Of a stretch of 64,000 nucleotides of DNA, positions 27,116-60,258 are shown piece by piece. Under the pieces are notes generated by a model. It was not told the DNA's origin. It worked only from the letters and a program-made list of their open reading frames with translations, and made no database searches. Position numbers and translations under genes: made by a program. This stretch comes from an uncultured Latescibacterota bacterium (GTDB lineage Bacteria; Latescibacterota; UBA2968), in contig OX638329.1 of NCBI GenBank assembly GCA_951812755.1, positions 791,339 to 855,338 of the forward strand, read 5' to 3'. Position 1 is the stretch's first letter. Each line of letters opens with the position of its first letter.

Positions 27116-27925
27116 ATGTCTGCGCTTACGGAAGACGAGATCCGGTTTTTCAAACGCGAGGGCTATCTGGTGAAGAAGGGTGCTCTGGATCCGGAGTTGT
27201 GCGCGCGTGCGCGAGAACGCCTGTGGGACGATCCGCCGCCGAGTCTGAAGAAAGACGATCCGGATTCGTGGGTCGGTCCTATTAAGCCGGAAGAGGAATC
27301 AATGGATAGCAGCAATTACAAGCGCGGTTATCGCTGGCAATACCGCAAGGTGGGCAGAGAGCCCTGGATGATTGAGTTGTTGGCAAAGAATCCGGTTGTG
27401 TGGGGTGCTGCGGAGCAGATGCTGGGTAAGGGCAATTTTCCCGAACCCGGTGGTGTGCGCGGTATTTATTGTACGTTGCCTTACGGCGATGTGGAGCGCC
27501 AACCGCGGCATTTGCATGTGGATGCCCATGCGTTCAATTTTGCCGTGGTGGGTTATATCGATCACGTTCCCGAAGATGGCGGCGGTTTTACGGTGTGGCC
27601 CAAAAGCCATCGCACGTTTTTTTTCGATTACCAGACGCGCTATCTCAGGGAGCCATTGCCCCGGATGGAGAAGCATAGAGAGCAGTTTCAATCTTGTGAC
27701 GAGAATTCATATCAGACGCATGGCGAACCCGGCGATATTGTTTTCTGGCATCACCGTATCGGGCATATGGCGTCGCAAAATTTTTCGCGGCAGATTCGAA
27801 AGGCGGTGTTGTACGATTTCAAGCTGAACAATATGCCCCAGCTTCAGGAAGAACCCCCGGGGGATGATATCTGGGTCGATTGGACAGATGATGTACGGGA
27901 TGTGTCGATTGAGGATGGAGAATAG
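27116..27925 (+). CDS. Phytanoyl-CoA dioxygenase (PhyH) family protein, canonical HxD
   Basis: This 269-aa Fe(II)/2-oxoglutarate oxygenase keeps the facial triad: H134-V-D136 (RHLHVDAH) and the distal His217 in WHHRIGHMAS, followed by a 2-oxoglutarate-binding Arg region. Substrate is unknown. AAAGGAGAGAG lies about 7 bp before ATG 27116. A gene for a 30-aa membrane peptide follows 18 bp later. It differs from the tandem group at 31032-33749, which lacks the carboxylate. Confidence 0.9.
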   Translation: MSALTEDEIRFFKREGYLVKKGALDPELCARARERLWDDPPPSLKKDDPDSWVGPIKPEEESMDSSNYKRGYRWQYRKVGREPWMIELLAKNPVVWGAAEQMLGKGNFPEPGGVRGIYCTLPYGDVERQPRHLHVDAHAFNFAVVGYIDHVPEDGGGFTVWPKSHRTFFFDYQTRYLREPLPRMEKHREQFQSCDENSYQTHGEPGDIVFWHHRIGHMASQNFSRQIRKAVLYDFKLNNMPQLQEEPPGDDIWVDWTDDVRDVSIEDGE

Positions 27926-31031: not shown

Positions 31032-31895
31032 ATGAATGCGCGCGAGCGATATTTCTGGGATTTGACGGGATACCTCGTCGTGAAAGGCGTGTTGTCAGAA
31101 GAGGAAGTTGCGCGGGCGAATGATATTGTGGATCGCTACTGGGACCGGGTTCAGGTCGGCGGTTCAACGGCGAGGGAGTCGGTTGCTTTTGCCGGTACAG
31201 GGCGTCCTATGTTGCCCGGTATTCTCGAATTTCCAAAACCGGATTGTGAACCTTTCCGGGAGATGCTGGCACATCCTGTGCTGGTGAAGTATCTCAATGT
31301 GATGTGCGATAAGGGGTTTCGGCTCGACCACGGTCCGATGTTTATTGTGAGTAATAAGGGTACGGCAGGTCATACGATGCACGGAAATGGCGATCCGCAT
31401 CGGCCGCATGTCGCGTATCACCATCAAAATGGCAAGACGTGGGTTGGCGGTGTGACTGTGGCGTGGCAATTGCACGATTGCAAAGAGGGGATGGGTGGGT
31501 TTGCCTGTGTGCCATCCAGTCACAAGGCGATGTTTCCGATGCCAAAAGGTGTGCATACAGGAGACGATGACATGGATTTGATCAAGCAGCCCGTGGTGGA
31601 GGCTGGCGATGTCATCTTTTTTATGGATAGCGCGCAATCACACGGCGCAACGCCGTGGAAATTGGATACGACGCGGCGGTCCATTTTGTTCAAATACACG
31701 GGTCGCACATGTGCGCGGGGCGGTCCTTCTCAGGAGGTGTCGCCGCCGGAGATTTATTGGGATCGAGAAATTGTCGAGGATATGACGCCCGAGCAATTGT
31801 CGGTTATGTATGGTCCTTATTCCAATCACAAAGGCCGCGTGCCATCTCTGGAGGTCTGTGAGGATGGAAGCGTGCGGATAGAGGGATATCAATAG
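31032..31895 (+). CDS. PhyH-family protein 1 of a tandem trio, HxN in place of HxD
   Basis: The 287-aa protein has the family architecture: FRLDHGPMFIVS, the metal-region MHGNGDP with H117-G-N119, the AWQLHDC...GGFACVPSSHK strand pair, and the distal His in DSAQSHGATPWK followed by RRSILFKY for 2-oxoglutarate. The carboxylate of the usual HxD is Asn119; an Asp occurs only two residues later (D121). The missing ligand recalls HxA/HxG halogenases but could also mean a shifted ligand or loss of oxygenase activity. AAAAGGAGAAG precedes ATG 31032. Confidence 0.88.
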   Translation: MNARERYFWDLTGYLVVKGVLSEEEVARANDIVDRYWDRVQVGGSTARESVAFAGTGRPMLPGILEFPKPDCEPFREMLAHPVLVKYLNVMCDKGFRLDHGPMFIVSNKGTAGHTMHGNGDPHRPHVAYHHQNGKTWVGGVTVAWQLHDCKEGMGGFACVPSSHKAMFPMPKGVHTGDDDMDLIKQPVVEAGDVIFFMDSAQSHGATPWKLDTTRRSILFKYTGRTCARGGPSQEVSPPEIYWDREIVEDMTPEQLSVMYGPYSNHKGRVPSLEVCEDGSVRIEGYQ

Positions 31896-31907
31896 GAGAG
31901 TTTCACC

Positions 31908-32786
31908 ATGGGCAACAATCTTTATACAGTGAGCGAAGAGGAGAAGTACTTTTTTGACCTGCGCGGTTATCTGGTCGTGCGGGGTGCTCTGTCTGCGGAT
32001 GAGGTTAAAACTTGTAATGATGCGATTGATCACTATGGGGATGAAATCAGGACGCGGTCTATTGAAGATGGCGGTCTGGCGCGGGGTTCGTCCGCGCTTA
32101 CGGGCAAAGAGGGCCGGCGCGAGCTTACGGGTATGTTGGGTTGGCCCGAACCCTATCGCGAGCCGTTTCGGAAATTGCTCGTTCATCCGGTTGTGGTGAG
32201 CCGTTTGAATGAGTTTAGCGGCAAGGGTTTTCGCCTGGACCACGGGCCGCTGTTGATTAGCGCGCTCAAAGGCGCAGAGGGCCACCAATTGCACGGTGGC
32301 GGCGAACCGTTTAGCCAGTCGGTGTGGTATCACCAGCAGAATGGGAAGATTTTCTGTCGCGGTATTACTGTGGCGTGGCAATTGACAGATGTCAATGATG
32401 GCGATGGTGGTTTTGCCTGTGTGCCGGGGAGTCATAAGACGGCTGAGCCAACCCCCGCTGAGGTGCGTTCTGTAGAGGACGATATGGGGCTGGTCTATCA
32501 ACCCGTGATGCAAGCGGGTGATGTGCTCTTTTTTGCGGAGACGATGACGCATGGTACGCTGCCGTGGCGCGGCGAGGGCGAGCGTCGTTCTGTGCTTTAT
32601 AAATATGCTTCTCGCGCAGCGGCGCGCGCTGTGGGCAAGTATTTTACGCCCCAGGAACGCTATGGGGATTGGGTCAGTGAGTTGACGGCAGAACAACAAG
32701 CGGTTTTGTACGGTCCCGGCGTCCATCACAGCGGTCGGCTGCCCCTGCTGGAGTCCGATGGCGAAACAACGCGGGTTGTGAAGTGA
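31908..32786 (+). CDS. PhyH-family protein 2 of the trio, HxG in place of HxD
   Basis: This 292-aa paralogue of its neighbours starts 12 bp after the first. It keeps FRLDHGPLLISA, the GGFACVPGSHK segment and the distal His in ETMTHGTLPWR with RRSVLYKY. The metal motif is H129-G-G131-G-E133-P. Start ATG 31908 follows GGAGAG. Gene order and similarity indicate tandem duplication with divergence. Confidence 0.88.
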   Translation: MGNNLYTVSEEEKYFFDLRGYLVVRGALSADEVKTCNDAIDHYGDEIRTRSIEDGGLARGSSALTGKEGRRELTGMLGWPEPYREPFRKLLVHPVVVSRLNEFSGKGFRLDHGPLLISALKGAEGHQLHGGGEPFSQSVWYHQQNGKIFCRGITVAWQLTDVNDGDGGFACVPGSHKTAEPTPAEVRSVEDDMGLVYQPVMQAGDVLFFAETMTHGTLPWRGEGERRSVLYKYASRAAARAVGKYFTPQERYGDWVSELTAEQQAVLYGPGVHHSGRLPLLESDGETTRVVK

Positions 32787-32807
32787 GTCCGCAGATGACG
32801 CAGATGT

Positions 32808-32831
32808 GTAGGGGCGAAAAACCTTTCGCCC
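32808..32831. repeat. REP family C, partial
   Basis: GTAGGGGCGAAAAACCTTTCGCCC in the 63-bp gap between the second and third PhyH genes; the outer bases of the right arm are missing. Confidence 0.8.
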
Positions 32832-32849
32832 GCTTACAGGGAGCAAATA

Positions 32850-33749
32850 ATGGATGCCAAAGAACGATATTATTGGGATGTGACGGGGCATCTGGTGGTG
32901 CGCGATGTTCTGTCGCAGGAAGAATTGGATGGGGTGAACAATGTGTTGGATTATGTTATTGGCACGGGTATTGTTCACCAGAGCGAGGATAATCACGGGG
33001 CAGCAGATTCTACTTTTTTGCGGGGGACTGGTTCGCGCTGGGTACACGGGACGAATTTACTGGAGTTGCCCAGGCCATACTGTGAGCCTGTTCGCGACTT
33101 GTTGGCTCATCCGGTTATTGTGAAGTATTTGAATGTGATGTGTGGGAAGGGTTTCAGGCTGGATCACGGTCCCCAGTTTAATAATGCGGTGAAGGGTACG
33201 GCGGGTCTGGTCCTGCACGGCGCGGGGGAGCCGCATCGGGAGTACGTGGCTTATCATCACCAGAATGGCGAGATGTATTGCGGCGGGGTTACTGTGACGT
33301 GGAATTTGACGGATTGTCCAGAGGGCAAAGGGGGGTTTGCTTCGGTGCCCGGGTCACATAAGTCGAAATTTCGGATGCCGATTGGGGTTCGCAATTGCGA
33401 TGAGGATATGGGTGCGGTTGCCAATCCGGGGATTCGTGCCGGTGATGTGCTGTTTTTTATGGATGGGGCGCAAACTCACGGGACGCATCCGTGGCAAAAT
33501 GATCACGATCGTCGGTCTATTCTTTTTAAGTACGCTTCCCGTACAGCTATACGACAGGATCTGTCGAATGCGGTTTGTCATCCCGAAGTTTTTTGGGATG
33601 GCGAGATTGTTGATGGGATGACGATGGAGGAGCGTGCGGTGATGTACGGCCCGTGTTCTGCGCCGCCAAACGATGAGATGTTTCTGGTGGTCGAAGATGA
33701 CGGTGTGGTTCGGCTGGAGAATACGCGGGAACAACAGGCTGCGGATTAG
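32850..33749 (+). CDS. PhyH-family protein 3 of the trio, HxA in place of HxD
   Basis: The 299-aa protein is closest in length and sequence to the first of the trio (MDAKERYYWDVTGHLVVRDV versus MNARERYFWDLTGYLVVKGV). The metal motif is H123-G-A125-G-E127-P, and the distal His lies in DGAQTHGTHPWQ with RRSILFKYASR. HxA is the motif of SyrB2-type halogenases, although that resemblance alone does not prove halogenation. AGGGAGCAA precedes ATG 32850. Confidence 0.88.
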   Translation: MDAKERYYWDVTGHLVVRDVLSQEELDGVNNVLDYVIGTGIVHQSEDNHGAADSTFLRGTGSRWVHGTNLLELPRPYCEPVRDLLAHPVIVKYLNVMCGKGFRLDHGPQFNNAVKGTAGLVLHGAGEPHREYVAYHHQNGEMYCGGVTVTWNLTDCPEGKGGFASVPGSHKSKFRMPIGVRNCDEDMGAVANPGIRAGDVLFFMDGAQTHGTHPWQNDHDRRSILFKYASRTAIRQDLSNAVCHPEVFWDGEIVDGMTMEERAVMYGPCSAPPNDEMFLVVEDDGVVRLENTREQQAAD

Positions 33750-33832: not shown

Positions 33833-33868
33833 GTAGGGGCGAAAAATTTTTCGCCCCTACTTTTTTTT
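33833..33868. terminator. Perfect 28-bp palindrome with T8: likely bidirectional terminator
   Basis: The family C repeat here is a perfect 28-bp palindrome (33833-33860; arms GTAGGGGCGAAAAA and TTTTTCGCCCCTAC) followed directly by eight T. It fits an intrinsic terminator for the PhyH trio. The last T residues overlap the stop codon of the convergent gene. Confidence 0.75.
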
Positions 33869-35405
33869 ATGCCGCATATTGATTGGCGAAGATGATAAAG
33901 TCGGTAAAGTTGATGTGTCCATCTCCGTTGAGGTCAAAGTGACGCTGATAGCTGGTGTCGCCCCGGTTCAGGCCAAAGTTCTGGACGAATAAGAGGAAGT
34001 CGGCAAAGTCCTTTTGTCCATTGCCATTGAAGTCTATGCTTATTTCGCCGCCCCTGCCAACGGTGAGGGCGATGTTTTCATCGCCTGGTCGGTAGGGTAT
34101 GTATTCCATGACCAGCAGGAGCATTTCATCGGTGGTTTTTTCGCCCCAGGTCAAGTTGCGGGGGGGATAGTTGGGATTGAGTGGGTTGTTTGTGGTGTTG
34201 TCGTAGGTGGTAATGGCGTGAATTTGGGATCCCGCAGCTATTTTTTGATATTGGGTGAAGGTGTAATTGCCCTGCCAGTTAAAATCCCAGTCTTCGATAC
34301 GGATGAGGTTGGTGCGGTTGCCCTGTGGGTCCGTGGCATAGACTTCCCAGGATTTGCCCAGCAGGTGCATGTGCGGGTAGATGGACAGGAGGCTGATATC
34401 CCGATTGATGAAGAGTGTTGTGCGAAATGTTGTGATCTGATCTTTCGGGATGACAAAGAGTTTGTCGATTTGAATTTTTTCTACGGGGGTGCCGCCGTGT
34501 CGTTCCTCTCCGAGCAGGACTCTGAATATTCTGCTCAGTGTTTTACCGTCCGTGGTGAGCGGTGCAAAGCTGATAAAGCCGACTTCTCTTTCGATGGGTT
34601 CTTTTTTGAAGAATATGTTGATGCTGGATTGATCGGATTCTGCGAGTGGCCAGGGTGCGTAGTGTACCTGGATCAGTAAGTCGGAGTTTTTGGGCAATAT
34701 GTGTCCAACGCCTTTGGGATATATCGGGGGTTTTGCACCGGGTGTATATCCGGGGAGGACAACAGCGGTTGGCGCGCCGAATGCACCGAAGGATTCGTAA
34801 CCGTATTCCGGGGTTTCGAGGTCTCTTTGGCGGGCCGTGCCCGTGATGTCTGCGCCGATGAGGGCGTGGTGAACGATTCTGCTGTTGCCGGGGCGAAATT
34901 CAACGGCTTCGATTTCCCGGTCTTCTGTGAGGTGGGTTGGGATGACGAAGACCTGGTACTGGTCCTCATTGTTGCCGCGGATTGTAAAGGGTTCTGCCAT
35001 GGTGAGTACGAGGTCGGGTGTGCCGAGTACAGAGCCTGTTGGAAATTCCGGTATGGAGGCTTCAAGGGCGATGTCGCCCTGGGGGAAGCCGGCGTTGACC
35101 CAGTTCGAGATGGTGTTGATTTCCGTTTTGGTGAGTGTTCTTGCGCCGATGTGCTGGCTGTAGTTGTAATCGGGTTTCCACGGGGGCATGTACTGGGTTT
35201 CTGTGACGTGTTTGATCATGTCTGCATAAGCCGCGATTTCGCTGTAATTCGTGAGGGGCATAGGCCCTATTTCACCGTCTCGATGGCACGATGTGCAGTT
35301 GTTGTATATGATTGACGAGACGTCTTTGCTAAAGGTGGGGGTTTCCGCGCGTGGCGAATCAAAGGCGAGGAGGATCGCGAGTATGGAGAGCGTAAGTGGT
35401 CGCAT
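33867..35405 (-). CDS. Secreted cytochrome c / PHM-like copper monooxygenase with EF-hand tail
   Basis: The 512-aa protein has a signal peptide (1-20), a cytochrome c haem site C37-T-S-C40-H41 and two copper type II ascorbate-dependent monooxygenase (PHM-like) domains. Copper ligands are visible: H179-H180 (IVHHALIG) and H248 (QVHYAP) for one copper, H345/H347 (YPHMHLLGK) and a Met near 433 for the other. The C-terminus has two calcium loops (DFNGNGQKDF at 458 and DLNGDGHINF at 491) of dockerin type. It probably hydroxylates a substrate outside the cytoplasm, with haem-delivered electrons. A redoxin gene lies next to it. Confidence 0.88.
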   Translation of the reverse strand: MRPLTLSILAILLAFDSPRAETPTFSKDVSSIIYNNCTSCHRDGEIGPMPLTNYSEIAAYADMIKHVTETQYMPPWKPDYNYSQHIGARTLTKTEINTISNWVNAGFPQGDIALEASIPEFPTGSVLGTPDLVLTMAEPFTIRGNNEDQYQVFVIPTHLTEDREIEAVEFRPGNSRIVHHALIGADITGTARQRDLETPEYGYESFGAFGAPTAVVLPGYTPGAKPPIYPKGVGHILPKNSDLLIQVHYAPWPLAESDQSSINIFFKKEPIEREVGFISFAPLTTDGKTLSRIFRVLLGEERHGGTPVEKIQIDKLFVIPKDQITTFRTTLFINRDISLLSIYPHMHLLGKSWEVYATDPQGNRTNLIRIEDWDFNWQGNYTFTQYQKIAAGSQIHAITTYDNTTNNPLNPNYPPRNLTWGEKTTDEMLLLVMEYIPYRPGDENIALTVGRGGEISIDFNGNGQKDFADFLLFVQNFGLNRGDTSYQRHFDLNGDGHINFTDFIIFANQYAA

Positions 35406-38646: not shown

Positions 38647-39483
38647 ATGGTTTCAGATCTCGATGTTTATTTGTTTGATTTGCGAGGATACCTGCTTATG
38701 GAGGGGGCGCTGACGGGTGATGAGGTTCAGGCGTTGAACGATTGTTTGGATGAGATTCCCGCGCTGAAGCCGGGGGAGTGGTACGGGTATGTTCAGGGAC
38801 ATGCGTATGGCGATGTGACTTCGGGGATCAATTATCAGCAGATTTATGAGGCGGGCGAGCCGTTTGAGGATCTGATTGATCATCCGTCGTGGTTTGAGCA
38901 TGTGAAACTTTTTATCGGTGCGGAGGGGACGTTTGATCACCATCACGGGCCTATGTTTATCGATGAGTGTTTGGCCAATTTTCGCGAGCCGGGCGAGGCG
39001 ATTGGGTTGCATTCGGGTGGGTTTCCGCCGATTGCGAGGAATCAGTTCCGGTATCACGGGGGGCGGTTTATGTGCGGGCAGGTGAATGTGCTGATGGCAC
39101 TGACGGATATTGGTCCGGGCGATGGCGGGACGATGTTGATTCCGGGGAGTCACAAGTCGAATTTCAGGCATCCGTATTACGATGAGCAGAGGATGGGGAA
39201 GGACAGGTCTGTGGAGGGTACGGTGGGTGCGATTGAGGTGTTTATGAAGGCGGGCGATGCGCTGGTTTTTGTGGATGGGATTTCACACGGGTCGGCGAAG
39301 CGGGTCAATGCGGGGACGCGGCGTATCGCGGTGTATCGCTACGGGCCTTCGTGGGGGAATTTCCGGCACGGGTACCAGCCGTCGCCAGAGTTGCTGGAAC
39401 GCCTCACACCCCAACGCCGCCGTATTGTGCAACCACAGGTGTTGCTCCCAAGGGAACCGCAGGTGAAGAGGGGTGAGGGATGA
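38647..39483 (+). CDS. PhyH-family protein, HxG in place of HxD
   Basis: The 278-aa paralogue is more distant from the trio but keeps the layout: DHHHGPMFID, then GLHSGGFPP with H122-S-G124 at the metal site, the GDGGTMLIPGSHKSNF pair and the distal His in DGISHGSAKRV with RRIAVYRYG. No acidic residue follows in the +4 position here (Phe/Pro), so the carboxylate is missing altogether. AAGGAG lies 8 bp before ATG 38647. Its last codons overlap a 53-bp direct repeat copy at 39478. Confidence 0.87.
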   Translation: MVSDLDVYLFDLRGYLLMEGALTGDEVQALNDCLDEIPALKPGEWYGYVQGHAYGDVTSGINYQQIYEAGEPFEDLIDHPSWFEHVKLFIGAEGTFDHHHGPMFIDECLANFREPGEAIGLHSGGFPPIARNQFRYHGGRFMCGQVNVLMALTDIGPGDGGTMLIPGSHKSNFRHPYYDEQRMGKDRSVEGTVGAIEVFMKAGDALVFVDGISHGSAKRVNAGTRRIAVYRYGPSWGNFRHGYQPSPELLERLTPQRRRIVQPQVLLPREPQVKRGEG

Positions 39484-39675: not shown

Positions 39676-41415
39676 ATGAACTATAGCGACCAGGATATTG
39701 CACGCCAACTGCGCTTAGGCGAGGACAGCCAATGGGAATTTAAGCAGATCGCGTTTTCCGGGAATCGGCCCACAAGCCCCCGACGCGATGATCTGGCCGA
39801 TGAGATCGCGGCTTTTGCTAACACGGATGGCGGGATACTGTTGTGTGGGATAACTGATAGGGGTGATGTTCAAGGTTTGTCGCGCGAGCGGATGGATGAA
39901 TTGGAGAGGCTTCTGGTGGATATTTGCACCGATGTGATCAAGCCTCCAATCCGTCCCACCATCCTTCGACGCATTGTAGATGAACGTCCGTTGCTGCTGG
40001 TTGAAATACCACAGGGCCAGGCGCAGTACGATAGCCCCGGTGGCAGCTATCATCGGGTCGGCAGTTCGAAGCGCAGGATGACAAGCGAGGAGCGGTTGCG
40101 TCTGGCGCAGCGGCGGGGACAAGCGAGGTTTCGCTGGTTCGACGAGCAGCCCGTGCCGGATACCGGGTTCCGCACGCTGGACGAAACGTTTTGGAAACCG
40201 TTGTTGAGCGCGGAAGGCAGGGCCAATCCCGAAATGGCACTGGAAAAACTCGCGCTGTTAGGTAGGGATGAAAACGGCGCAATACGGGCCACGGTGGCGG
40301 GGATTCTCCTGTGTACTCACGCGCCAGAGCAGTGGCTTCCCAACGCCAGCATTACAGCCACGCACTACCGCGGGCAGGACCGGGCATCCGGCCAATTGGA
40401 TGCACAGATCATCACTGGTCCGATCAACCAGCAGGTGGCGGACGCAATGGCCTTCGCGATGCGCAACATGCGCGTCGGTGCTTACAAGAAACCCGCCCGC
40501 CTGGACCTGCCCCAGTACAGTGCCGAAGCACTTTTCGAGGCGATGGTTAATGCTGTCGCCCATCGGGACTATTCGATTCGCGGCAGCCGAATTCGAGTGT
40601 CCATGTTTGCAGACCGCATAGAAATCAATTCGCCGGGTGGGCTGGCGAATAACCTCACCATTGATAGCATGGCGGCTCGGCAAGCGACGCGTAACGAAAC
40701 CATCACATCTGTGCTTGGACGAATGCCCGTTGGTGACATTCCCGGGTCCGAAAAGCGTCAATTTTTCATGGAGCGTCGCGGCGATGGCGTTCCCATTATC
40801 CTGCGCGAGACCGAGGCGTTGAGCGGAAAAGCCCCCCAATATTGGCTTCTCGATGAGTCAGACCTCTTTCTGACGCTTCCCGCTGCAGACACGAATGCCA
40901 CGCCAGCCACTGTCGCGATGACGGTTCATAGCGATGGTCGTCCGGTCACTGGAGCCGATTTGCTGGTGCTGTTTCCGGACCATACATGGAAGCGAGCTAC
41001 GACGGATGATAATGGAGAAGCGACGGTAGATTTGTACGCGACGAACCTGCCCATGACTGTGTTCGTCGCCGCCAGGGGCTTTGCCGCACACCTTGAACGT
41101 GGGTGGGTTCCGGCGGATGGTGCGCTGGCTGTGGAACTCAACCCTCTTCTCAATGGCGGTTCGGTGATTTTTCCCGAGGCAACTGGTACTATTCCGGGGC
41201 TTAAAGGGCAAATCAATCCCATTCGCGGTGCCCATGACCGAACCTATCTCTATGCCTCGAATATCACCATCAACCAGGGTGAGCACCAACCTGTTCACTT
41301 TTCTTTTGGTGAAGACTTGCGGCTGATAGATGCTAATGGTGTCGAAGTGTGGGGGCGCATCATCCATATCGCAGGTCGATCAGCACTGGTTGAGTATCGG
41401 CCATTTGAGCCCTGA
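39676..41415 (+). CDS. AlbA_2 (Schlafen-like) / HATPase_c_4 protein with C-terminal beta domain
   Basis: This 579-aa protein has the N-terminal AlbA_2 domain (QWEFKQIAFSG, DDLADEIAAFANTDGGILLC), a middle region and a RecG-type ATPase C-terminal domain with ALFEAMVNAVAHRDYSIRGS and FADRIEINSPGGL. A further part (about 410-579) includes PVTGADLLVLFPDHTWKRAT and DNGEATVDLY, resembling a regulatory carboxypeptidase-like/Ig fold. AlbA_2 proteins occur in regulators and defence genes. It lies between 53-bp direct repeats with an orphan higA, at the left edge of the defence island. GGAGGTG precedes ATG 39676. Confidence 0.85.
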   Translation: MNYSDQDIARQLRLGEDSQWEFKQIAFSGNRPTSPRRDDLADEIAAFANTDGGILLCGITDRGDVQGLSRERMDELERLLVDICTDVIKPPIRPTILRRIVDERPLLLVEIPQGQAQYDSPGGSYHRVGSSKRRMTSEERLRLAQRRGQARFRWFDEQPVPDTGFRTLDETFWKPLLSAEGRANPEMALEKLALLGRDENGAIRATVAGILLCTHAPEQWLPNASITATHYRGQDRASGQLDAQIITGPINQQVADAMAFAMRNMRVGAYKKPARLDLPQYSAEALFEAMVNAVAHRDYSIRGSRIRVSMFADRIEINSPGGLANNLTIDSMAARQATRNETITSVLGRMPVGDIPGSEKRQFFMERRGDGVPIILRETEALSGKAPQYWLLDESDLFLTLPAADTNATPATVAMTVHSDGRPVTGADLLVLFPDHTWKRATTDDNGEATVDLYATNLPMTVFVAARGFAAHLERGWVPADGALAVELNPLLNGGSVIFPEATGTIPGLKGQINPIRGAHDRTYLYASNITINQGEHQPVHFSFGEDLRLIDANGVEVWGRIIHIAGRSALVEYRPFEP

Positions 41416-41427
41416 TTATCAGATTTA

Positions 41428-41460
41428 CCTGTTGACGTAGAGGTCGCGGACTATCACTAA
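41428..41460 (+). pseudogene. Scar of a higB toxin gene (last codons)
   Basis: The frame ending TAA 41460 reads LPVDVEVADYH, close to the usual HigB C-terminus (..DVEIVDYH). The rest of the toxin gene is missing and AlbA_2 coding sequence ends 13 bp earlier. higA begins 14 bp after this stop, exactly where a HigBA operon would place it. Too short to be certain, but the position makes it convincing. Confidence 0.6.
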
Positions 41461-41474
41461 CAGGGAGTAAGATC

Positions 41475-41780
41475 ATGGACGAAAAAAACGGTATGAGACT
41501 TGTGCATCCTGGTGAGATATTGAGCGAGGAACTCGAAACACTCGGCTTGTCGGCTAACGTGCTGGCTAAAGCACTCGATGTGTCGCTCGACCGCGTCACT
41601 GCGATCCTCAATGGTCAGCAGAGTGTAACCGCTGATATCGCACTCAGGTTAGCACGCTATTTTGGAATGACGCCGCAGGTCTGGTTGAACCTGCAGAAGA
41701 CCTACGAGCTTCGTCAAGCTGAGATTGATGTGGGCGAGCGCATTGCTAAGCGCGTGAAACCCCGGCAAGTAATGGTGTAG
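41475..41780 (+). CDS. higA: HigA-family antitoxin, toxin lost
   Basis: The 101-aa protein has the HigA pattern MRLVHPGEILSEELETLGLS, a helix-turn-helix (ANVLAKALDVSLDRVTAILNG) and the ADIALRLARYFGMTPQVWLNLQ tail. It normally represses its own operon and neutralises HigB. Its toxin partner survives only as the last codons at 41428-41460. AGGGAGTAAG precedes ATG 41475. Confidence 0.92.
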   Translation: MDEKNGMRLVHPGEILSEELETLGLSANVLAKALDVSLDRVTAILNGQQSVTADIALRLARYFGMTPQVWLNLQKTYELRQAEIDVGERIAKRVKPRQVMV

Positions 41781-41781
41781 A

Positions 41782-42090
41782 GGATGACAATAAGCAAGTA
41801 AACGTTGACATTCGTCACGACCTATCAACCAGGTAGTCATCGCGGCCCCGTATAGAGTCACTACGGGGCAGGCTATGGTTTTAGCCGCGATCCAGGAGGT
41901 TTTGCCGTTGGTTTTGATTGTCATCGTGGCATGCTTTAAGCCGCGATCCAGTAGGCAAGTAAACGTTGACATTCGTCACGACCTATCAACCAGGTAGTCA
42001 TCGCGGCATGGTTTTAGCCGCGATCCAGGAGATTTTGCCGTTGGTTTTGATTGTCATCGTGGCATGCTTTAAGCCGCGATCCAGAAGGTT
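41782..42090 (+). repeat. Right direct repeat and REP A cluster upstream of hsdM
   Basis: Full 53-bp repeat at 41782-41834, a nested-hairpin REP (CCCCGTATAGAGTCACTACG inside the loop), REP A copies at about 41920, 41998 and 42052, and a partial direct repeat at 41955-41995. The 150-bp unit is thus itself partly duplicated. A GCTGACCGCTGACTGC string (about 42094) precedes hsdM. No gene. Confidence 0.9.
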
Positions 42091-42140
42091 TTAGCTGACC
42101 GCTGACTGCTATGATTTCAACAGACAAAAAGGAATAATGG

Positions 42141-43703
42141 ATGACTAAAACGAATAAGGATAAATCCACTAATTACGAAGCGGAATTGTGGCAGATGGCC
42201 GATGCACTGCGCGGGAGTATGGATGCAGCGGAGTACAAGCATGTTGTGCTCGGTCTGATTTTTCTGAAGTATATCTCCGATGCTTTTCAGGAGGCGCACG
42301 CCCAGTTGGAGTTGGAGCGCGATGAGGGTGCTGACCCTGAGGATCCGGATGAGTACCGCGCTCAGAATATTTTTTGGGTGCCTCCCGAGGCGCGCTGGGC
42401 GATTCTTCAGGCTGCTGCGAGGCAACCGACGATCGGACAAAAGGTGGATGATGCGATGGTGGCTATTGAGCGCGATAATGAAGCATTGAAGGATGTGCTG
42501 CCCAAGGATTATGCCCGGCAGGCGTTGGATCAGACCCGTTTGGGTCAGGTTATTGACTTGATCAGCAATATCAATATTGGCGATTCAGAGGCGCGTTCTC
42601 GGGATATGCTGGGCCAGGTTTATGAGTATTTTTTGAGTCAGTTTGCTCTGGCTGAGGGACGCAAGGGAGGCGAATTTTATACGCCGCGCTGTGTGGTGAA
42701 TTTGCTGGTGGAGATGTTAGAACCCTATAACGGGCGGGTTTATGATCCGTGTTGTGGTTCTTCCGGTATGTTCGTGCAGTCTATCGCGTTTATTCAGGCG
42801 CATCAGAGCGGGAATGGCAATGGGGGCAATGCGCGGGCTGATATTTCTATTTATGGGCAGGAGTCTAATTATACGACGTGGCGTTTGGCAAAGATGAATC
42901 TGGCGATTCGGGGGATTGAAGGGCAGATCGCGCAGGGGGATACGTTTCACAATGACCGCTATCCCGATATGCGGGCGGATTATGTTCTGGCGAATCCTCC
43001 GTTTAATGTTTCGGATTGGGGCGGTGATCGGTTGCGCGAGGATCAGCGCTGGCAGTATGGCGTACCGCCCGTGCGGAATGCCAATTTTGCGTGGGTGCAA
43101 CATATTGTGCATCATCTTTCGCCGACTGGTACGGCGGGTTTTGTGCTGGCTAATGGCTCGATGTCGTCCAGCCAGTCTGGCGAGGGCGAGATACGCAAGA
43201 GTTTGATTGAGGCGGATCTGGTGGATTGTATGGTGGCGTTGCCAGGGCAGCTTTTCAGATCGACGCAGATTCCCGCGTGTCTCTGGTTTCTGGCGCGTGA
43301 TCGGCATAATGGAAGGTTCCGCGACCGCAGGGGTGAGGTCCTGTTTATTGATGCGCGGAAGCTGGGGTATATGGTGGATCGTACGCAACGGGAATTGACG
43401 GAGGAGGATATTGCCCGTATCTCGGATACTTACCACGCCTGGCGATCTGGTGTGGATTATGCCGATGTTCCCGGCTTTTGCAAGGGTGCCACGCTGGAAG
43501 AAATTAGCCGACACAGCCATATTCTTACGCCTGGTCGCTATGTGGGCGCCGAGCCGCAAGAGGATGATGGCGAACCTTTTGGGGATAAGATGAAGCGTCT
43601 GGTCGCGCAATGGCAAGAGCAACAGGCCGAGGCGAAGAGACTGGATACTGCGATAGATGCGAATTTGAAGACGCTCGGATTTGGGGGAGGACACGATGCC
43701 TGA
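42141..43703 (+). CDS. hsdM: Type I restriction-modification system, methyltransferase subunit
   Basis: The 520-aa HsdM methylates adenine. It has an N-terminal HsdM domain ([33 protein letters not shown]), the SAM-binding motif DPCCGSSGM (about 201-209), the [24 protein letters not shown]-type segment before it, and the catalytic NPPF (about 283-286). It is intact. AAAAAGGAAT precedes ATG 42141. It overlaps the hsdS gene by 8 bp, while its partner hsdR lies about 12.4 kb downstream beyond cargo genes. Confidence 0.96.
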
Positions 43704-45324
43704 TCGTCTGGATCTGCCCCGCCGCTATCGGGATCAGATTGAGGCACTGTTGCGGGAGCATGTGCCCGGTGTGGAGGTGTGGGCTTATGGTAGCCGCGTG
43801 AGCGGTAGAAGTCACGAGGGCAGTGACCTGGATTTGGTGCTGAGAGGTCCGGACTTGAAGCGGATACCCAGCGGCCAACTCGCTGATCTGATTGAGGCGT
43901 TGGAGCAGTCGAACGTTCCCATCATTGTGCAGATACATGATTGGGCGAGACTGCCGGAGAGCTTTCACCGAGAGATTGAGCGGGAATATGTAGTGTTGGT
44001 GGAGAAAGAAGATGAGCGGTGTCTGGCCGGTGATTGGCAGTTGTTAAGACTTTCCGATGCTGTACATTTGATTGGTGGTGGGACACCGAAACGAAGTCAT
44101 ACTGAGTACTGGGGTGGGTTGATTCCTTGGCTTTCGGTAAAAGATTTTAATAATGACAATCGTCATGTGGAATCTACAGAGGAATCCATTACCGAACTTG
44201 GACTTATAAAAAGCAGTGCCAAAATTCTGAAGGAAGGTCAGTTAATCATTTCCGCCCGAGGGACAGTTGGTGCTTTAGCACAACTGTCAAAGCCTATGGC
44301 TTTCAATCAGTCATGTTATGGAATAGATGCAAAACCTGAATATACAACAAACGATTTTCTCTATTATCTTATTAAGCATTCTATAGTTGATTTCAAACAA
44401 GTTACCCATGGAGCGGTGTTCGACACTATTACTCGAGAAACATTTGAGCATATATGGATAAACCTACCCCCTCTCCCTGAACAACGCGCCATCGCTCACA
44501 TCCTCGGCACGCTGGACGATAAGATCGAGTTAAACCGCCGTATGAACGAAACACTGGAAGAGATGGTCCGCGCCCTGTTCAAATCGTGGTTCGTCGATTT
44601 CGACCCCGTCCGCGCCAAAATGGAAGGTCGCGATCCCGGTCTGCCAAAACACCTCGCCGACCTATTTCCCGACCGCCTCGTGGATTCGGAATTGGGACCG
44701 ATACCGGAAGGGTGGGAGGTTGGATGCTTTGGTGATATAGTTGATCAAATTCGAGACAATGAAAACCCACTCGCTTCTCCAGATACTGTCTTCCACCACT
44801 TCAGTATTCCGGCCTTCGATAAAAACCAATGGCCACAGATAGAATGTGGCGAAGATATCAAAAGTCAGAAATCTCGTGTGCCACCGGAAGTGATTTTGTT
44901 ATCAAAGCTTAATCCGGAGGTTGAGCGCGTCTGGTTCGTGGATGTGGCATCTGATGAGAGGGCAATATGTTCGACCGAGTTCTTGGTGCTTCAGGCTCGA
45001 CAGCCGTTCCAACGGAGCTACGTCTATTGCTTTGCACGCTCCCCGTTCTTTCGCCAACAGATTGAATCTCTCGTAACAGGCACGTCGAAAAGTCACCAAC
45101 GGGCACCAGCAGGAGCCGTTCTTGCCCTGGAAGCCATAATACCATCGACACCAGTCATTCGCGCGTTTGACCAGCAAGCTTCGGTACTCTTGGACAGGAC
45201 TGTTGGCTACCGCAGAGAGACCATCACCCTTGCCGCTCAGCGAGACGCGCTGTTGCCGAAGCTCATTTCTGGAGAATTGCGAGTAACGGACGTAGAAAGA
45301 CACATCTCGAAAGAATACACATGA
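43696..45324 (+). CDS. hsdS: HsdS specificity subunit fused to an N-terminal nucleotidyltransferase (MNT) domain
   Basis: The 542-aa protein has an MNT-like domain at about 1-105: [20 protein letters not shown] with G32-S33 and D44/D46, then [10 protein letters not shown], where the usual third acidic residue is Gln79. HsdS follows: target-recognition domain 1 (about 115-250), the central conserved [20 protein letters not shown] (about 256), TRD2 from [12 protein letters not shown] (about 333), and [14 protein letters not shown] (about 515). HsdS sets the DNA target; the MNT domain may regulate it or be vestigial. ATG 43696 overlaps hsdM. The following gene overlaps its stop by 4 bp. Confidence 0.9.
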
Positions 45325-45737
45325 AACACTGTTGCCAAAATTGCCACTTTCTGACCAAAGACCATATTTGGCCTAACGGAGAAGAGCGTTCCTTCTCATG
45401 GACTACGGAAGAACGAAAAAACTTTCGTCTTGCGATTGAGGAGGATCACAAGGCTAGGTGTTACAAAAACGTTTGGAACACAGAAATTGACTCGACACTG
45501 CAAGACAAGCTCAAAGAAGTCTTGTTGCAAGATCGGAAGGGCGATTGTTTCTTTCTCGAAGAGCATCAGGGCATGTCGTTTCAAGCGGCCCACGAACTGT
45601 TTCAGATCCGCAATGATAACCGACAACTAAAGCGCAGCTATAGATACACACAAATCGGTTTGTGGATTGCGGCTGTCGGCCTAGTTGCAAACGTGGTTGT
45701 GAAGTTACTCGAAATATTGGGATGGATTCCGCAGTAA
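45321..45737 (+). CDS. Small Cys-rich protein with a C-terminal transmembrane helix
   Basis: This 138-aa protein has an N-terminal C4-C5-x2-C8 cluster ([10 protein letters not shown]) plus two later Cys, a charged helical middle, and one membrane helix near the end (IGLWIAAVGLVANVVVKLLE). I do not recognise a family. ATG 45321 overlaps the hsdS stop (ATGA), so it is translated with hsdS. A cytoplasmic sensing domain with a membrane anchor suggests an accessory or effector of the restriction system; that is inference. Confidence 0.7.
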   Translation: MKHCCQNCHFLTKDHIWPNGEERSFSWTTEERKNFRLAIEEDHKARCYKNVWNTEIDSTLQDKLKEVLLQDRKGDCFFLEEHQGMSFQAAHELFQIRNDNRQLKRSYRYTQIGLWIAAVGLVANVVVKLLEILGWIPQ

Positions 45738-45764
45738 GTGTAGTTTCAAGGCGAGATTAATCTT

Positions 45765-45848
45765 GAAATCCCAGACCGCTGCGAAATCCGCACACTCGCC
45801 ATCCTGCGTGACGCGCTATTGCCGATGTTGGTATATGGGGAGTTGTGA
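45765..45848 (+). pseudogene. Remnant of an hsdS 3' end (first copy)
   Basis: The frame ending TGA 45846-45848 reads EIPDRCEIRTLAILRDALLP followed by MLVYGEL, matching the end of HsdS proteins (..[14 protein letters not shown]). It is not from the intact hsdS upstream, whose own end differs. Only about 27 codons remain, between the Cys-rich gene and the SIR2 gene, so a second hsdS was cut or recombined here. Confidence 0.72.
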
Positions 45849-45874
45849 GTTAAACAAACGGAGATGAAAACACT

Positions 45875-47653
45875 GTGATTGATCCAGTTCATTCATTAGC
45901 GTTCTCGGTTCAGGCCAATCCTGGCGTTTACGCTGTCCTTTTAGGTTCGGGAGTGTCCAGAGCAGCAAAAATTCCCACAGGCTGGGAAGTGACGCTTGAT
46001 TTGATTCGCAAATTGGCAAAGCTCCACGAGGAGACGAGTGATCCCGACCCGGAACACTGGTATCGAGAGAAGTTCAATCAGGAGGCAAATTACTCTGATC
46101 TTCTCGACGCACTTGCTAAAAAACCGGCCGAGCGACAACAGCTACTACGTGCGTACTGGGAACCGAGCGAGCAAGAACGCGCGGATGAGGAGAAACAACC
46201 CACAGCGGCGCACCGCGCTATCGCGGCATTGGCAGCGCAAGGATTCGTCAAGGTCATCATTACGACGAATTTTGACCGTCTTGTGGAAACCGCTCTCAAC
46301 GATGAGGGAGTTGTTCCGACGGTTCTGAGTTCCCCGGATCAGGTTCAGGGCGCGCTTCCATTGATTCACACACAATGTTGTGTCTTTAAGGTGCATGGCG
46401 ATTACCTCGACACCCGCATTAGAAATACGCCTGCCGAATTGGATGAATATCCACCCGAGTTCGATCAACTCTTAGACCGCATCTTTGATGAATTCGGTCT
46501 GATCGTATGTGGCTGGTCAGCAGAGTGGGATGAGGCGTTGCGTTCTGCGTTTATTCGCGCGCCATCGCGTCGATTCACGACATATTGGGCGGCGCGAGGC
46601 GAACCAGGCGACAAGGCCCAAAAACTTATTGATCATCGCAAAGCGCAAGTGATTCCCATTGAGGATGCTGACACATTTTTTCAAACCGTTCAGCAAAACG
46701 TCGAGTCCATTGAGGAGTTTTCGAGACCTCACCCGCTTTCTACCGAGGCTGCTGTAGCAAGTCTGAAGCGATACATTGTCGAGTCCCGATACCGGATTCA
46801 ATTTTCAGATCTTATTGATCAGACAGTTGAGCGAGTTATCGAACTGACTTCTGGCGAGGCTTTTGCCGTACCAGATGATCCAAATCTGTCCAGCGAGCGC
46901 GTTACTGCGTGTGTACGTGGCTATGAGAAGGCGTGTTCGACATTACTGGCAATGGCACTAACCGGGGGCTTTTGGGCAGAAGAGGAGCACTATTCCGTGT
47001 GGCAACGGGCACTACAGTATCTCGTTTCAAGAACACCAAGCAGCGGCTCCGGTTTTGGAGTATCTGGCATTATCCAGGACACATGGCTTGAGTTGCAACG
47101 ATATCCGGCGACGCTTCTGCTCTATGCGTTGGGACTCGGTGCTGTCGAGGCTGATCGGCTTCGGTTTCTCAAACACTTGCTGGCTACCACACTTCGTGGA
47201 AGACGCCAGGAGGATGTGTCTGCAGTACAGATACTTCCACCTTTCTGCTTGTTTTCAGGAGGTGGACAGATAATGCAGCATCTGGAAGGAATGGACAGAC
47301 GCCACGCCCCACTAAATGACTGGATACACGATACATTGCAGTCACACGCCGAACTCATCATTCACGACAACAATCGATATACCCTGGTGTTCGATAAGCT
47401 CGAGATACTGATGGCACTCAGCTACGCATATCATGACGAAAGGTCTCTAGACCGGTACTGGGCACCTGCTGGTGCTTTCGGATACCGGTCTGATAACAGA
47501 GGTCGAATTTTTCAGGAGATTGAGGAATCGCTCTCAACCATGCAAGCCGAGTCCCCATACGTAACATCTGGGATTTTCGGCGAGACCGTTGCGGAGTGTA
47601 AACAAGGCGTGGAGGCTTTGAAACAATTTATTCCGAGTTTGCGTTGGTATTGA
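45875..47653 (+). CDS. SIR2-domain defence protein
   Basis: The 592-aa protein has an N-terminal SIR2-like domain: VLLGSGVSRAAKIPTGWE (22-39), IITTNFDRLVETAL (about 127-140) and VFKVHGD (about 169-175). SIR2 domains of bacterial defence systems often degrade NAD when infection is sensed. The C-terminal half (about 300-592) is helical and unrecognised, possibly a sensor. The GTG start at 45875 is used, with CGGAGATG about 10 bp upstream. It lies in the island between two hsdS scars, with the GIY-YIG gene 122 bp later; the 47654-47775 gap shows nothing. Confidence 0.85.
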   Translation: MIDPVHSLAFSVQANPGVYAVLLGSGVSRAAKIPTGWEVTLDLIRKLAKLHEETSDPDPEHWYREKFNQEANYSDLLDALAKKPAERQQLLRAYWEPSEQERADEEKQPTAAHRAIAALAAQGFVKVIITTNFDRLVETALNDEGVVPTVLSSPDQVQGALPLIHTQCCVFKVHGDYLDTRIRNTPAELDEYPPEFDQLLDRIFDEFGLIVCGWSAEWDEALRSAFIRAPSRRFTTYWAARGEPGDKAQKLIDHRKAQVIPIEDADTFFQTVQQNVESIEEFSRPHPLSTEAAVASLKRYIVESRYRIQFSDLIDQTVERVIELTSGEAFAVPDDPNLSSERVTACVRGYEKACSTLLAMALTGGFWAEEEHYSVWQRALQYLVSRTPSSGSGFGVSGIIQDTWLELQRYPATLLLYALGLGAVEADRLRFLKHLLATTLRGRRQEDVSAVQILPPFCLFSGGGQIMQHLEGMDRRHAPLNDWIHDTLQSHAELIIHDNNRYTLVFDKLEILMALSYAYHDERSLDRYWAPAGAFGYRSDNRGRIFQEIEESLSTMQAESPYVTSGIFGETVAECKQGVEALKQFIPSLRWY

Positions 47654-47775
47654 AGGTGGCTCGTGCTTCTTTACCAAATCTATCATAAAAAGACCCGCCC
47701 TTGCTTATCTGTGAAGTTCAATCGGTGCGGTGTCGCTGGTATATGCGTCACAAAATATATTAGGAGAACCCACCA

Positions 47776-48648
47776 ATGGATCGGCCATTAGGATTTTCAG
47801 TAACAATCTTCTTCCCTTCGGGTCAGTTAGAAGGCCTGCGTGTAATTGAGAAGTCGAATTGGGCAGGACAAGGTCTTATTTTTTCTCGCTCGGTCTTCGC
47901 CGACGAAGTTCGCCACCGAGAAGAACTCAATCTTACCGGCGTGTATGTCCTTTGGGGACCCGGCGAAACAGAGCAATTGCCTCGTGTCTATGTAGGTGAG
48001 GGCAATGTATTGCTGCAACGACTGGATAGCCATATGAGAGACAAGGGTTTCTGGACCCATGGGGTTGTCTTCACGAGCAACCAGAGCCTGAACAAGGCAC
48101 ACGTTCAATACCTCGAAGCCCGGCTGGTACAACTCGCGAGTGAAGCGAAGCGCTGCAAATTGGACAACACAAATACCCCACAGAAGCCATCGCTATCGGA
48201 TACGGATATGACGCCTGCAGAGCAGTATCTGACCGACATGTTGCGATGCCTGTCTATCGTAGGGGTGAATTTTTTCGACAAACCGCGGGAACCAAGAAAA
48301 ACAAATCAAGACTTTTTCCTGAGTGGTAAAAATATAAAGGCGCAGGGTTCTGAAGATAAGTCAGATTTTGTCGTACGCGCCGGTTCTCAAGCGGTCAAGA
48401 CCGAGGCTAAGTCGATACCTGTCCGTCATTCTAAACTCCGAAAGGAACTACTGGACCAGGGCATTTTTCAAGATACAGGTACCGCGTACCGGCTTGTCAA
48501 AGACTGCCGCTTTAATTCACCTTCCGCTGCAGCTAGCGTTCTACTAGGAACATCCAGCAATGGGCGTATCCTATGGAAGGATGCCAACGGGAGATCTTTG
48601 AAGGAAATCCAAGAAGAAGAGACAATTGACGAATCTGATGTCGAATAA
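47776..48648 (+). CDS. GIY-YIG nuclease-family protein with DUF4357
   Basis: The 290-aa protein has a GIY-YIG domain starting LTGVYVLWGPG (about 53-63), then RVYVGEGNVLLQRLDSHM and an EARLVQLA helix with the acidic residue, and a C-terminal DUF4357 domain (about 198-280: FVVRAGSQAVKT...SPSAAASVLLG). Such proteins cut DNA or are predicted to in defence loci. TAGGAGAA precedes ATG 47776. It may act with the SIR2 gene upstream as a nuclease/NADase pair, which is inference. Confidence 0.85.
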   Translation: MDRPLGFSVTIFFPSGQLEGLRVIEKSNWAGQGLIFSRSVFADEVRHREELNLTGVYVLWGPGETEQLPRVYVGEGNVLLQRLDSHMRDKGFWTHGVVFTSNQSLNKAHVQYLEARLVQLASEAKRCKLDNTNTPQKPSLSDTDMTPAEQYLTDMLRCLSIVGVNFFDKPREPRKTNQDFFLSGKNIKAQGSEDKSDFVVRAGSQAVKTEAKSIPVRHSKLRKELLDQGIFQDTGTAYRLVKDCRFNSPSAAASVLLGTSSNGRILWKDANGRSLKEIQEEETIDESDVE

Positions 48649-48672
48649 AGTCGTCATCGTCTAGAGGAAGAA

Positions 48673-48732
48673 TCCTGCACACGCGCCTCTCTACGGAATG
48701 CGCTGCCAAGGCTGGTTTAGGACAAGTTGTAA
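48673..48732 (+). pseudogene. Possible remnant of an hsdS 3' end (second copy)
   Basis: The frame reads CTRASLRNALPRLV, stop, DKL, stop, resembling a decayed LRDALLPxLxxGEL end. It lies directly after the GIY-YIG gene and before the TPR gene, the same relative position as the first remnant. Similarity is short, so confidence is moderate. Confidence 0.45.
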
Positions 48733-48791
48733 TTAAATCCTCTACGCCTATTTTTTCGAACGAACTTGGGAATTAGAGAGATAAGGTAAAC

Positions 48792-50624: not shown

Positions 50625-50691
50625 TGGACGAGGTGAAGCAATTACTTCGCGACCTCGACGCCGATGACACATGATTCCCTGGGAAATCACG

Positions 50692-50973
50692 TTACGCATC
50701 TAATACGCGCTGAAATGCCTCGATATTGGGCACCTGTATCGCCGCACGGTGCAACTGCTTGAGGTGTTGCAAATCGTCGATGGCGGCAATGCGAGCAGAT
50801 AGGGTGTGTGTTTCGGGCATGTCAAAACGAATCTCCAGCACTTCAAGGATAGCTTCGATCGTGCTTCTTTTTTCGCCTTGCTCAATGCCCTCCTCAAGGC
50901 CCTCCTCTCTGGCTTCCGCTCTACTTTGTTGGGTAAGGGATTGAAAAAGAGATGATTCGCGCAAGATGTCCAT
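50692..50973 (-). pseudogene. C-terminal fragment of an Rpn/PD-(D/E)XK transposase-like nuclease
   Basis: The reading from ATG 50973 gives MDILRESSLFQSLTQQSRAE, the EEGLEEGIEQGEKRS repeat and a helical end, the pattern of the C-terminus of Rpn-type (YhgA-like) proteins. The nuclease domain that should precede it is absent and the DNA upstream is repetitive, so this is a 5'-deleted remnant. It is antisense to the TPR gene, 18 bp from the restored TPR stop. Confidence 0.55.
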
Positions 50974-51275
50974 GATGCCCTCCAAAAAATGAGCGATAAT
51001 TTGCGTTGGCAGACGTCTAAACACTGCATTGTGCTTTAAATATGCTGTATTGCGCCCTTGTTTACAACCTGAATTTAAATCCGCAGATGGACGCAGATGG
51101 GCACAGAACAATTTCGGATGCGAAGGGGTACATTTTGAGCAATGAATGGACGGTTATGTGAAAGATATGTACCGCTGGATCATGTGGCTACCGCGGTGGT
51201 TCTTGCGTAATGTCAGTGGTTTATCCATGGTTTAGGCTGATCGTGCTACCGTGAGTGTCTATAGTAATACCAGCC

Positions 51276-51304
51276 TTGCACGAAAGGCCGATATGGTCTA
51301 TTAT
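51276..51304 (+). promoter_or_regulatory. Sigma-70-like promoter P1
   Basis: TTGCAC (51276-51281) and TATTAT (51299-51304) are separated by 17 bp. The spacer end GATATGGTC is identical in P2 at 53153-53181, so the two promoters were duplicated together with their spacing. Confidence 0.6.
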
Positions 51305-51380
51305 TTATTGGGATAGGGGAGAACTGAGATCGGATGAATGGTCTCTCAGGGAGTGGATGACTACAATCAGGGAGAATGAG

Positions 51381-51476
51381 ATGCAAGTTGAGCGTAAAAC
51401 ACCAAATTTGGAAGCGATATTGGAAGTATTTCGAGAACTGGGATTAGGAGGATGCCAGGGTAAGAGACAAGTTTAA
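51381..51476 (+). CDS. Possible 31-aa ORF downstream of P1
   Basis: ATG 51381 gives MQVERKTPNLEAILEVFREL and a short tail. It has AGGGAGAA upstream but no recognised family and may be a leader or fragment. The rest of the 51112-51564 interval shows no other coding signal. Confidence 0.25.
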   Translation: MQVERKTPNLEAILEVFRELGLGGCQGKRQV

Positions 51477-51564
51477 GAAATTGGCTGAGTTAGGCGATTG
51501 GCATACGTGGAGAAGAAGGCGCCTTGAACCCCAGGAAATACTGAGAATGAACAAGGAGATAATT

Positions 51565-52471: not shown

Positions 52472-52521
52472 AGGGAACGAAAATGACCACCAGCAAAACA
52501 CAAATAAAGGATTGAAGATTA

Positions 52522-53033: not shown

Positions 53034-53152
53034 TTCCCTTCACTTAATCCACCATTTAAGACACCACTCTCGCCTAACAGAGATCCCACCACCAGTGCCT
53101 TCCCGATGCAGACTGGGTCAGGCCAAAGTGAATTTTTGTGACAGTGCTGACC

Positions 53153-59267: not shown

Positions 59268-60113
59268 TCAGCACGTCACGCCGAGTTCGTCGCCGCCGTA
59301 TATGGCGAGGCGTTCTTTTGTGGTCATTTCCACGGTGCTTTCGGGGCGGTAGTGATATTGCAGTGCTCTGCGGCGGTGGGCGGATTGGTTGGTCGGGCTG
59401 CCGTGATGGGTCATGCCGTGCCAGAAGAGGCATCCGCCGGGGTCGAGTGGGACGGTGACGTTTCTGGGAACGGCGACGTCGGTGTCGCATATTTGCCAGT
59501 CGCGCCGCCTGAAGTGCGGAATGGGTCCTTCGCGGTGTGATCCGGGGATGATGTGCAAGCACCCGTTTTCTTCTGTTGCGGCGTCAATGGCGATCCATAC
59601 GCCGACGACGGTGGTGCCAACGGGGTAGTTGAAATAGGCGCAGTCCTGATGCCAGGGTTTTTCGCGGCCTATGTGCGGGGGTTTGATTAAGCCCATGTCC
59701 TGAAAGAGTACGGGGGTGTCGTCCATCATGCGGGAGAGGACGGAGAGGATGTTCGGGTCGTGGGCGAGGTCGTTGAGCCGCGTGTCATAATCGACGAATT
59801 TCCAGATTTTGCGCACGCTATCCCGGCGCGCTTCGCTCGTGAGTTTGGAAAAATGCCCGCGTTTGGCGGCTTCGGCCATGATGCCTTTGAAGTCCTGGCT
59901 CTTGCCGTCGATGAGGTCCCACATGGCCTGGCCCGCGGATTCGATTTGTTGCGGCGTAAATGCCTGTTGAATGGCGAGGTATCCCTGTTCGTGGAATCGG
60001 GCGATTTGACGGTCGTCGATGTCGGCGAGGGTGTCGAGATAGTTTGCCCGTCTGGTTGTTTCGTAGAGGGATGGTTCATGCATCGCGATGGGTGTTTCGC
60101 TGGTTTCGGCCAT
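59268..60113 (-). CDS. PhyH-family protein, canonical HxD
   Basis: The 281-aa protein has the Fe(II) ligands in REKPWHQDCAYFNYP (H155-Q-D157) and a distal His in FWHGMTHHGSP, followed by RRALQYHYRP. It also has the GCLHIIPGSHREGP strand pair. With the protein at 27116 it is the only one of six PhyH proteins here with an intact HxD. ATG 60113 (MAETSET) is chosen after GGAGG; longer in-frame readings are spurious. It is convergent with hsdR, 5 bp between stops. Confidence 0.9.
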   Translation of the reverse strand: MAETSETPIAMHEPSLYETTRRANYLDTLADIDDRQIARFHEQGYLAIQQAFTPQQIESAGQAMWDLIDGKSQDFKGIMAEAAKRGHFSKLTSEARRDSVRKIWKFVDYDTRLNDLAHDPNILSVLSRMMDDTPVLFQDMGLIKPPHIGREKPWHQDCAYFNYPVGTTVVGVWIAIDAATEENGCLHIIPGSHREGPIPHFRRRDWQICDTDVAVPRNVTVPLDPGGCLFWHGMTHHGSPTNQSAHRRRALQYHYRPESTVEMTTKERLAIYGGDELGVTC

Positions 60114-60192
60114 GGGAGGTTCCTTAAAGGCAGGTGAGAAGAGAGAGGGCCTCACACAAAGACACAAGGAGGCAAAGACGTTAAAAGCATCC

Positions 60193-60258
60193 GTCATCGC
60201 GGCATGCTTTAAGCCGCGATCCAGAGGTTTTGTAGGGGCGGTGCCCCGTGCCCGCCCG
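60193..60258 (+). repeat. REP A and GGGGC-type hairpin
   Basis: REP A at 60193-60230 (loop ATGCTTTAA) followed by GTAGGGGCGGTGCCCCGTGC. They separate the divergent genes at 60113 and 60325 and might carry regulatory sites, but no promoter consensus stands out. Confidence 0.88.

Follow-up and report, generated by a model that had tools for sequence, protein, structure and literature searches.

Four PhyH-family proteins encoded in the window (the whole stretch of 64,000 nucleotides analysed here, from the genome of an uncultured Latescibacterota bacterium) belong to one expanded clade, and with a probability that we put at roughly 55% they would be Fe(II)/2-oxoglutarate (2OG) oxygenases whose iron is held by two histidines only. 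In one genome alone, this clade accounts for about 40 proteins that lack the carboxylate, and its pattern, a near-invariant acid before the distal His and polar residues often found at the vacated site, points to two-His oxygenases resembling human AspH. An HxG or HxA motif in a PhyH protein is commonly taken as a halogenase call; judged by its sequences and its nearest characterised relatives, the present clade looks more like sugar-acting oxygenases than like halogen-adding enzymes.

Three of the genes stand side by side on the forward strand. Gene 1 (31032..31895, 287 aa, type B1) carries H117-G-N119-G-D-P, the acid D199, the distal H204 and the putative 2OG Arg R215; gene 2 (31908..32786, 292 aa, type A) carries H129-G-G131-G-E-P, E211, H215 and R226/R227; and gene 3 (32850..33749, 299 aa, type B2) carries H123-G-A125-G-E-P, D205, H210 and R221. 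Gene 4, a lone PhyH gene of the same clade (38647..39483, forward strand), encodes 278 aa from the ATG at 38647, the likely start with AAGGAG just ahead of it, or 285 aa from 38626. Counted from 38626, its residues are H129-S-G-G-F-P, D217, H221 and R232; counted from 38647, its proximal motif is H122-S-G. All four reading frames are open and intact and match PhyH (PF05721) with 40.3, 49.4, 44.5 and 66.6 bits for genes 1 to 4 (cut-off 22). AlphaFold models of genes 2 and 4 (pLDDT 89 and 82) were used as sources of secondary structure and fold matches.

None of the four has the canonical HxD...H facial triad of PF05721 enzymes. Read from the alignment columns, the proximal His and the vacated carboxylate position are HGN in gene 1 (31380..31388), HGG in gene 2 (32292..32300), HGA in gene 3 (33216..33224) and HSG in gene 4 (39010..39018), all on the forward strand. 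The His of LHG or LHS shares its column with the His of WHQD (MAFFT L-INS-i), and in the models of genes 2 and 4 it closes a short strand, its usual place in canonical enzymes. The distal His and an Arg 11 residues further on are kept in all four proteins. Elsewhere in the window, a comparison PhyH protein outside the clade (27116..27925, forward strand) reads HVD and another (59268..60197, reverse strand) reads HQD. An earlier note on this DNA had already described the lost carboxylate of the trio and of the gene at 38647, the retained distal His and Arg region and the two intact HxD proteins, and the residues, PhyH scores and alignment columns all agree with it; its interpretation holds as far as a lost carboxylate within an otherwise retained metal and 2OG site, but neither the halogenase lead nor the shifted acid that it put forward is supported. 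A HHQNG segment was also considered as a His ligand and rejected, distant members showing no conservation there.

The home genome, a single contig of 6.53 Mb that is 99.6% complete and whose close relatives by name are Candidatus Latescibacterota MAGs, contains at least 156 PhyH matches (about 160 genes). Its alignment of 169 PhyH domains, with the HxD state read from the columns, gave 120 domains with HxD, 41 in which the His stands without the Asp, and 8 with no His, and the domains lacking Asp or His fall mostly into one clade, which holds all four window genes and in which Asp is absent from 42 of the 43 members (SH-aLRT 97, quick tree). Carboxylate loss takes 8 state changes on this tree, against an average of 42.5 and a minimum of 36 in 500 label shuffles. 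Every one of the 37 His-retaining carboxylate-less members of the clade has the two His and the Arg. In a sample of the phylum, strong matches occurred in 42 of 60 genomes; these include all but one of the genomes in the home genome's class and no genome from outside it. The sole HxD member of the clade (L098:1402-2238, reverse strand) reads HAD and still has the Glu at -4; having either regained HxD or never lost it, this protein offers a natural test case for the role of that acid.

Across MAGs labelled as Latescibacterota, Poribacteria, Gemmatimonadota and others, the three genes fall into distinct types: gene 2 into type A, gene 1 into B1 and gene 3 into B2. Of 33 A genes, 30 adjoin a B gene; the order varies, and so do the flanking genes. 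The three exceptions include one A gene at a contig end and one with its B gene 302 bases off. Among the neighbours, the A-B tandem alone clearly recurs beyond close relatives. Carboxylate loss in the window genes is more than chance, because none of 83 distinct A- and B-type sequences, nearly all of them from other genomes, has Asp at the HxD position, because the dN/dS of the trio is 0.045-0.058 (about 0.05) and because the state changes on the tree are few. Since the tandem pairing extends across phyla and dN/dS is low, the sequences indicate that A and B are an old paralogue pair kept under selection. The two proteins may work together, either by forming a heteromer or by acting in successive steps. 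The TlxI-TlxJ heterodimer (PDB 7VBQ), which was among the fold matches, likewise pairs two different PhyH-fold proteins; that system, however, is fungal and is a heterodimer, whereas A and B are known here as tandem genes.

A scan of the alignment columns brought out an acid of which the earlier note had said nothing and which does track carboxylate loss, namely an Asp or Glu 4 residues before the distal His, or 5 residues in the B types with their one additional residue. On the forward strand it is found as D199-SAQS-H204 in gene 1 (31626..31643; -5, with the one-residue insertion), E211-TMT-H215 in gene 2 (32538..32552; -4), D205-GAQT-H210 in gene 3 (33462..33479; -5) and D217-GIS-H221 in gene 4 (39274..39288; -4), and in the models of genes 2 and 4 it sits just before the distal-His strand. 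It is present in 37/37 His-retaining carboxylate-less clade members and, by profile columns, in 99 of 100 class members from the window and other genomes, against only 5 of 118 HxD members outside the clade in the home genome. Four non-HxD members lie outside the clade, and the acid occurs in both HxG ones and in neither the HxE nor the HxH one. These two HxG proteins (L007:2299-3120 and L120:666-1442, forward strand), which have the acid at -4, are possibly independent carboxylate losses. Overall, the acid accompanies 39 of 40 carboxylate-less domains versus 6 of 121 others (Fisher p about 1e-29, uncorrected for kinship and inflated by shared descent), and independent contrasts of acid against carboxylate, with few independent events (4-6 pairs), were not significant. 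This near-invariant acid, placed beside one of the remaining ligands, probably does the job of the missing aspartate.

What that job may be is suggested by human AspH, whose motif is HXG...H (PMC10947486). In this enzyme a water, W1, fills the carboxylate position; D721, four residues before H725, forms a hydrogen bond to it, and the D721A variant has much reduced activity (PMC13168262). The clade resembles AspH in having two His only and an acid ahead of the distal one: genes 2 and 4 show the HxG...H arrangement with the acid at -4, whereas in genes 1 and 3 it stands at -5 with the insertion and gene 1 reads HxN. AspH nevertheless belongs to another family and acts on a protein substrate, and the likeness seen here is one of site layout, not evidence of descent. 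By this analogy, we infer that the metal site of the window proteins is laid out as in AspH: Fe(II) would be bound by the proximal and distal His together with 2OG, the latter held by the Arg 11 residues past the distal His, and the vacated site would be filled by water or hydroxide, held from the second shell by the -4/-5 acid as by D721. In many B-type proteins the vacated site holds Asn or Gln, and such a residue could itself touch the metal, which counts against this layout. A ferryl would then form and abstract hydrogen in the ordinary manner, leading to hydroxylation, oxidative cleavage or cyclisation.

The nearest structure is that of HygX, the oxygenase of hygromycin B biosynthesis, a sugar-containing antibiotic (PMC8234114), which has been crystallised both in an iron form and with nickel and 2OG together (PDB 4XC9, 4XCA, 4XCB, 4ZPI). 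HygX is the best PDB sequence match (73 bits, E 2e-19; the next reaches 40 bits), its structures occupy ranks 1-16 and 1-15 among the Foldseek fold matches of two queries, and it groups beside the clade in the tree (SH-aLRT 92). Like the clade, it carries an acid, a Glu, four residues ahead of the distal His and a similar hairpin (D/N-G-K-x-Y/F-C), and no HxD/E was found in a scan of its residues 5-227. It differs from the window proteins in that identity is only about 20%, its proximal His and the LHG His are not cleanly aligned, and it works in an antibiotic gene cluster whereas the window genes sit among catabolic-looking genes. By analogy, HygX backs the two-His layout in part. The PhyH/EctD-type hydroxylases of PF05721 share with the clade the Pfam family, the overall fold, the distal His and the Arg, but they keep HxD and, with the 5 exceptions counted above, have no acid at -4/-5.

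A broader version of the two-His reading, rather unlikely in our estimate, would see here a large, ancient and so far unrecognised carboxylate-free Fe/2OG class with dozens of paralogues per genome. In it a second-shell acid at a new place, together with a ligand site open to exchange, would stand in for the near-universal Asp, and some members might use that open site to transfer halide or other anions or to carry out new chemistry on sugars. The -4/-5 acid might instead bind the iron directly and thereby restore a relocated 2-His-1-carboxylate triad. Its near-invariance where HxD is lost, its rarity where HxD is present and its place just ahead of the distal-His strand would all suit such a ligand; yet the residue at the same spacing in AspH is second-shell (PMC13168262), and the tolerance of either offset and of either Asp or Glu would be unusual in the first shell, which leaves this arrangement unlikely.

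Halogenation is the reading that the motif itself invites. In Fe/2OG halogenases chloride or bromide takes the place of the aspartate and a ferryl intermediate moves the halide to an aliphatic carbon, and the characterised enzymes have Gly or Ala at the carboxylate position (PMC11186838). Loss of the carboxylate to Gly or Ala is seen both in SyrB2, CytC3, BesD and AdaV-type halogenases and in genes 2-4, whose HGG, HGA and HSG match the HxG/A signature; there are also weak profile matches to the C-terminal half of BesD (E 0.1) and to CytC3/SyrB2 (E 0.002-0.004), and the BesD sequence too has an Asp at -4. Sequence similarity to these halogenases is weak, however, HygX being far nearer than any of them, and the chlorinase model TIGR01762 peaks at 15.2 bits, far short of its cut-off of 226.3. 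Gene 1 reads HGN and its orthologues almost always have Asn, and across 100 class members the vacated position is A in 42, G in 21, S in 19, N in 11 and Q in 7, of which Ser, Asn and Gln would crowd a halide site. The conversion of a BesD-type hydroxylase into a halogenase is helped by an Asn (the V223N determinant; PMC13244439), and the column in question after the distal His, which bears on BesD-like enzymes only, holds Leu in 90, Val in 8, Ile in 1 and a gap in 1 of the 100. Moreover, in AspH the water W1 held by the -4 Asp appears to hinder (pseudo)halide binding (PMC13168262), and no NRPS/PKS context was found among the window genes scanned. Since the vacated site varies among A, G, S, N and Q, the TIGR01762 model fails and the BesD-type Asn is replaced by Leu, Val or Ile, the odds of a halogenase are lowered; halogenation is not supported for the clade and we judge it quite unlikely, an assay being needed to exclude it.

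It is distinctly unlikely that the window proteins are non-catalytic, serving as scaffolds or sensors, or as partners that regulate HxD PhyH enzymes. True pseudo-domains do exist in the family, as the N-terminal halves of relatives of about 600 aa that have lost both His and usually (5 of 6) the -4/-5 acid too, but all four window proteins keep both His, the Arg and the acid, and purifying selection is strong where it could be measured, in the trio. These long relatives are six two-domain PhyH ORFs of the home genome (L079, L080, L081, L082, L083 and L084; 584-611 aa), with N-terminal halves without both metal His (LVGGNEP, VVQGMRPW) and C-terminal halves with the His and without the Asp, that is, fused pseudoenzyme-enzyme pairs, and similarly long ORFs recur across the class.

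That the shifted acid of HGxGEP, four residues past the proximal His, is the third ligand is very improbable even though it occurs in 33/33 A-type and most B-type proteins, because 19 of 100 class members from the window and other genomes lack it (among them B-type proteins that carry Q, A, N or H instead, and the whole fourth-gene type), while all 6 N-terminal domains that have lost both His keep it. We rejected it as a metal ligand on these grounds, and the distribution suggests a role that is probably structural or substrate-related; for the gene at 38647 the earlier note had itself denied such an acid, correctly, since H-S-G-G-F-P has no acid near its proximal His.

As for the substrate of the proposed two-His oxygenases, it is probably a small carbohydrate, possibly sulfated or otherwise modified. 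Modified sugars are our best guess because HygX oxidises in the pathway of a sugar-containing antibiotic and because PhyH genes lie near sulfatases, of which the home genome has at least 152 (e.g., window 8510-9985 and 12013-13440). Among the matches listed, about 150 for each of the two gene sets, 47 PhyH genes lie within 2.5 kb of a sulfatase versus 15.6 expected (a count reached by none of 2000 rotations), and 11 carboxylate-less PhyH genes lie near sulfatases versus 3.7 expected (p 0.0065). An apiosidase-like glycosidase is found near the trio, and sulfatases, a TRAP transporter and a Gfo/Idh oxidoreductase further away.

The PhyH expansion of Poribacteria has been known since 2014, mostly without function (PMC3909097), and the present clade offers a first way into the question of why PhyH genes are so numerous in Poribacteria and Latescibacterota, which for the former has been open since that time. 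Our literature search, which covered few subscription journals, turned up no earlier account of a PhyH clade without the carboxylate. Should the two-His reading be true, halogenase mining by motif over-calls, and the clade would be a ready natural set for asking what an Fe/2OG enzyme needs without its carboxylate.

Some neighbouring genes merit mention in their own right. Just beyond the trio, on the reverse strand (33867-35405), lies a gene for a secreted-looking protein that weakly matches the N-terminal part of a cytochrome c and the C-terminal domain of a copper monooxygenase and has a dockerin type I repeat. Downstream of gene 4, a defence island (39676-59262, forward strand) combines a Schlafen/AlbA_2 protein with type I restriction-modification, its hsdM-hsdS being split from hsdR by genes for SIR2 (PDC-S65), DUF4357 (PDC-S14), TPR, NucC-like DUF6602, UvrD-like helicase and DUF2290 proteins. 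The type I specificity subunit HsdS (43681-45324, forward strand, TTG start) bears an N-terminal nucleotidyltransferase domain within one ORF, with PF01909/PF18765 at residues 19-111 and Methylase_S from residue 118.
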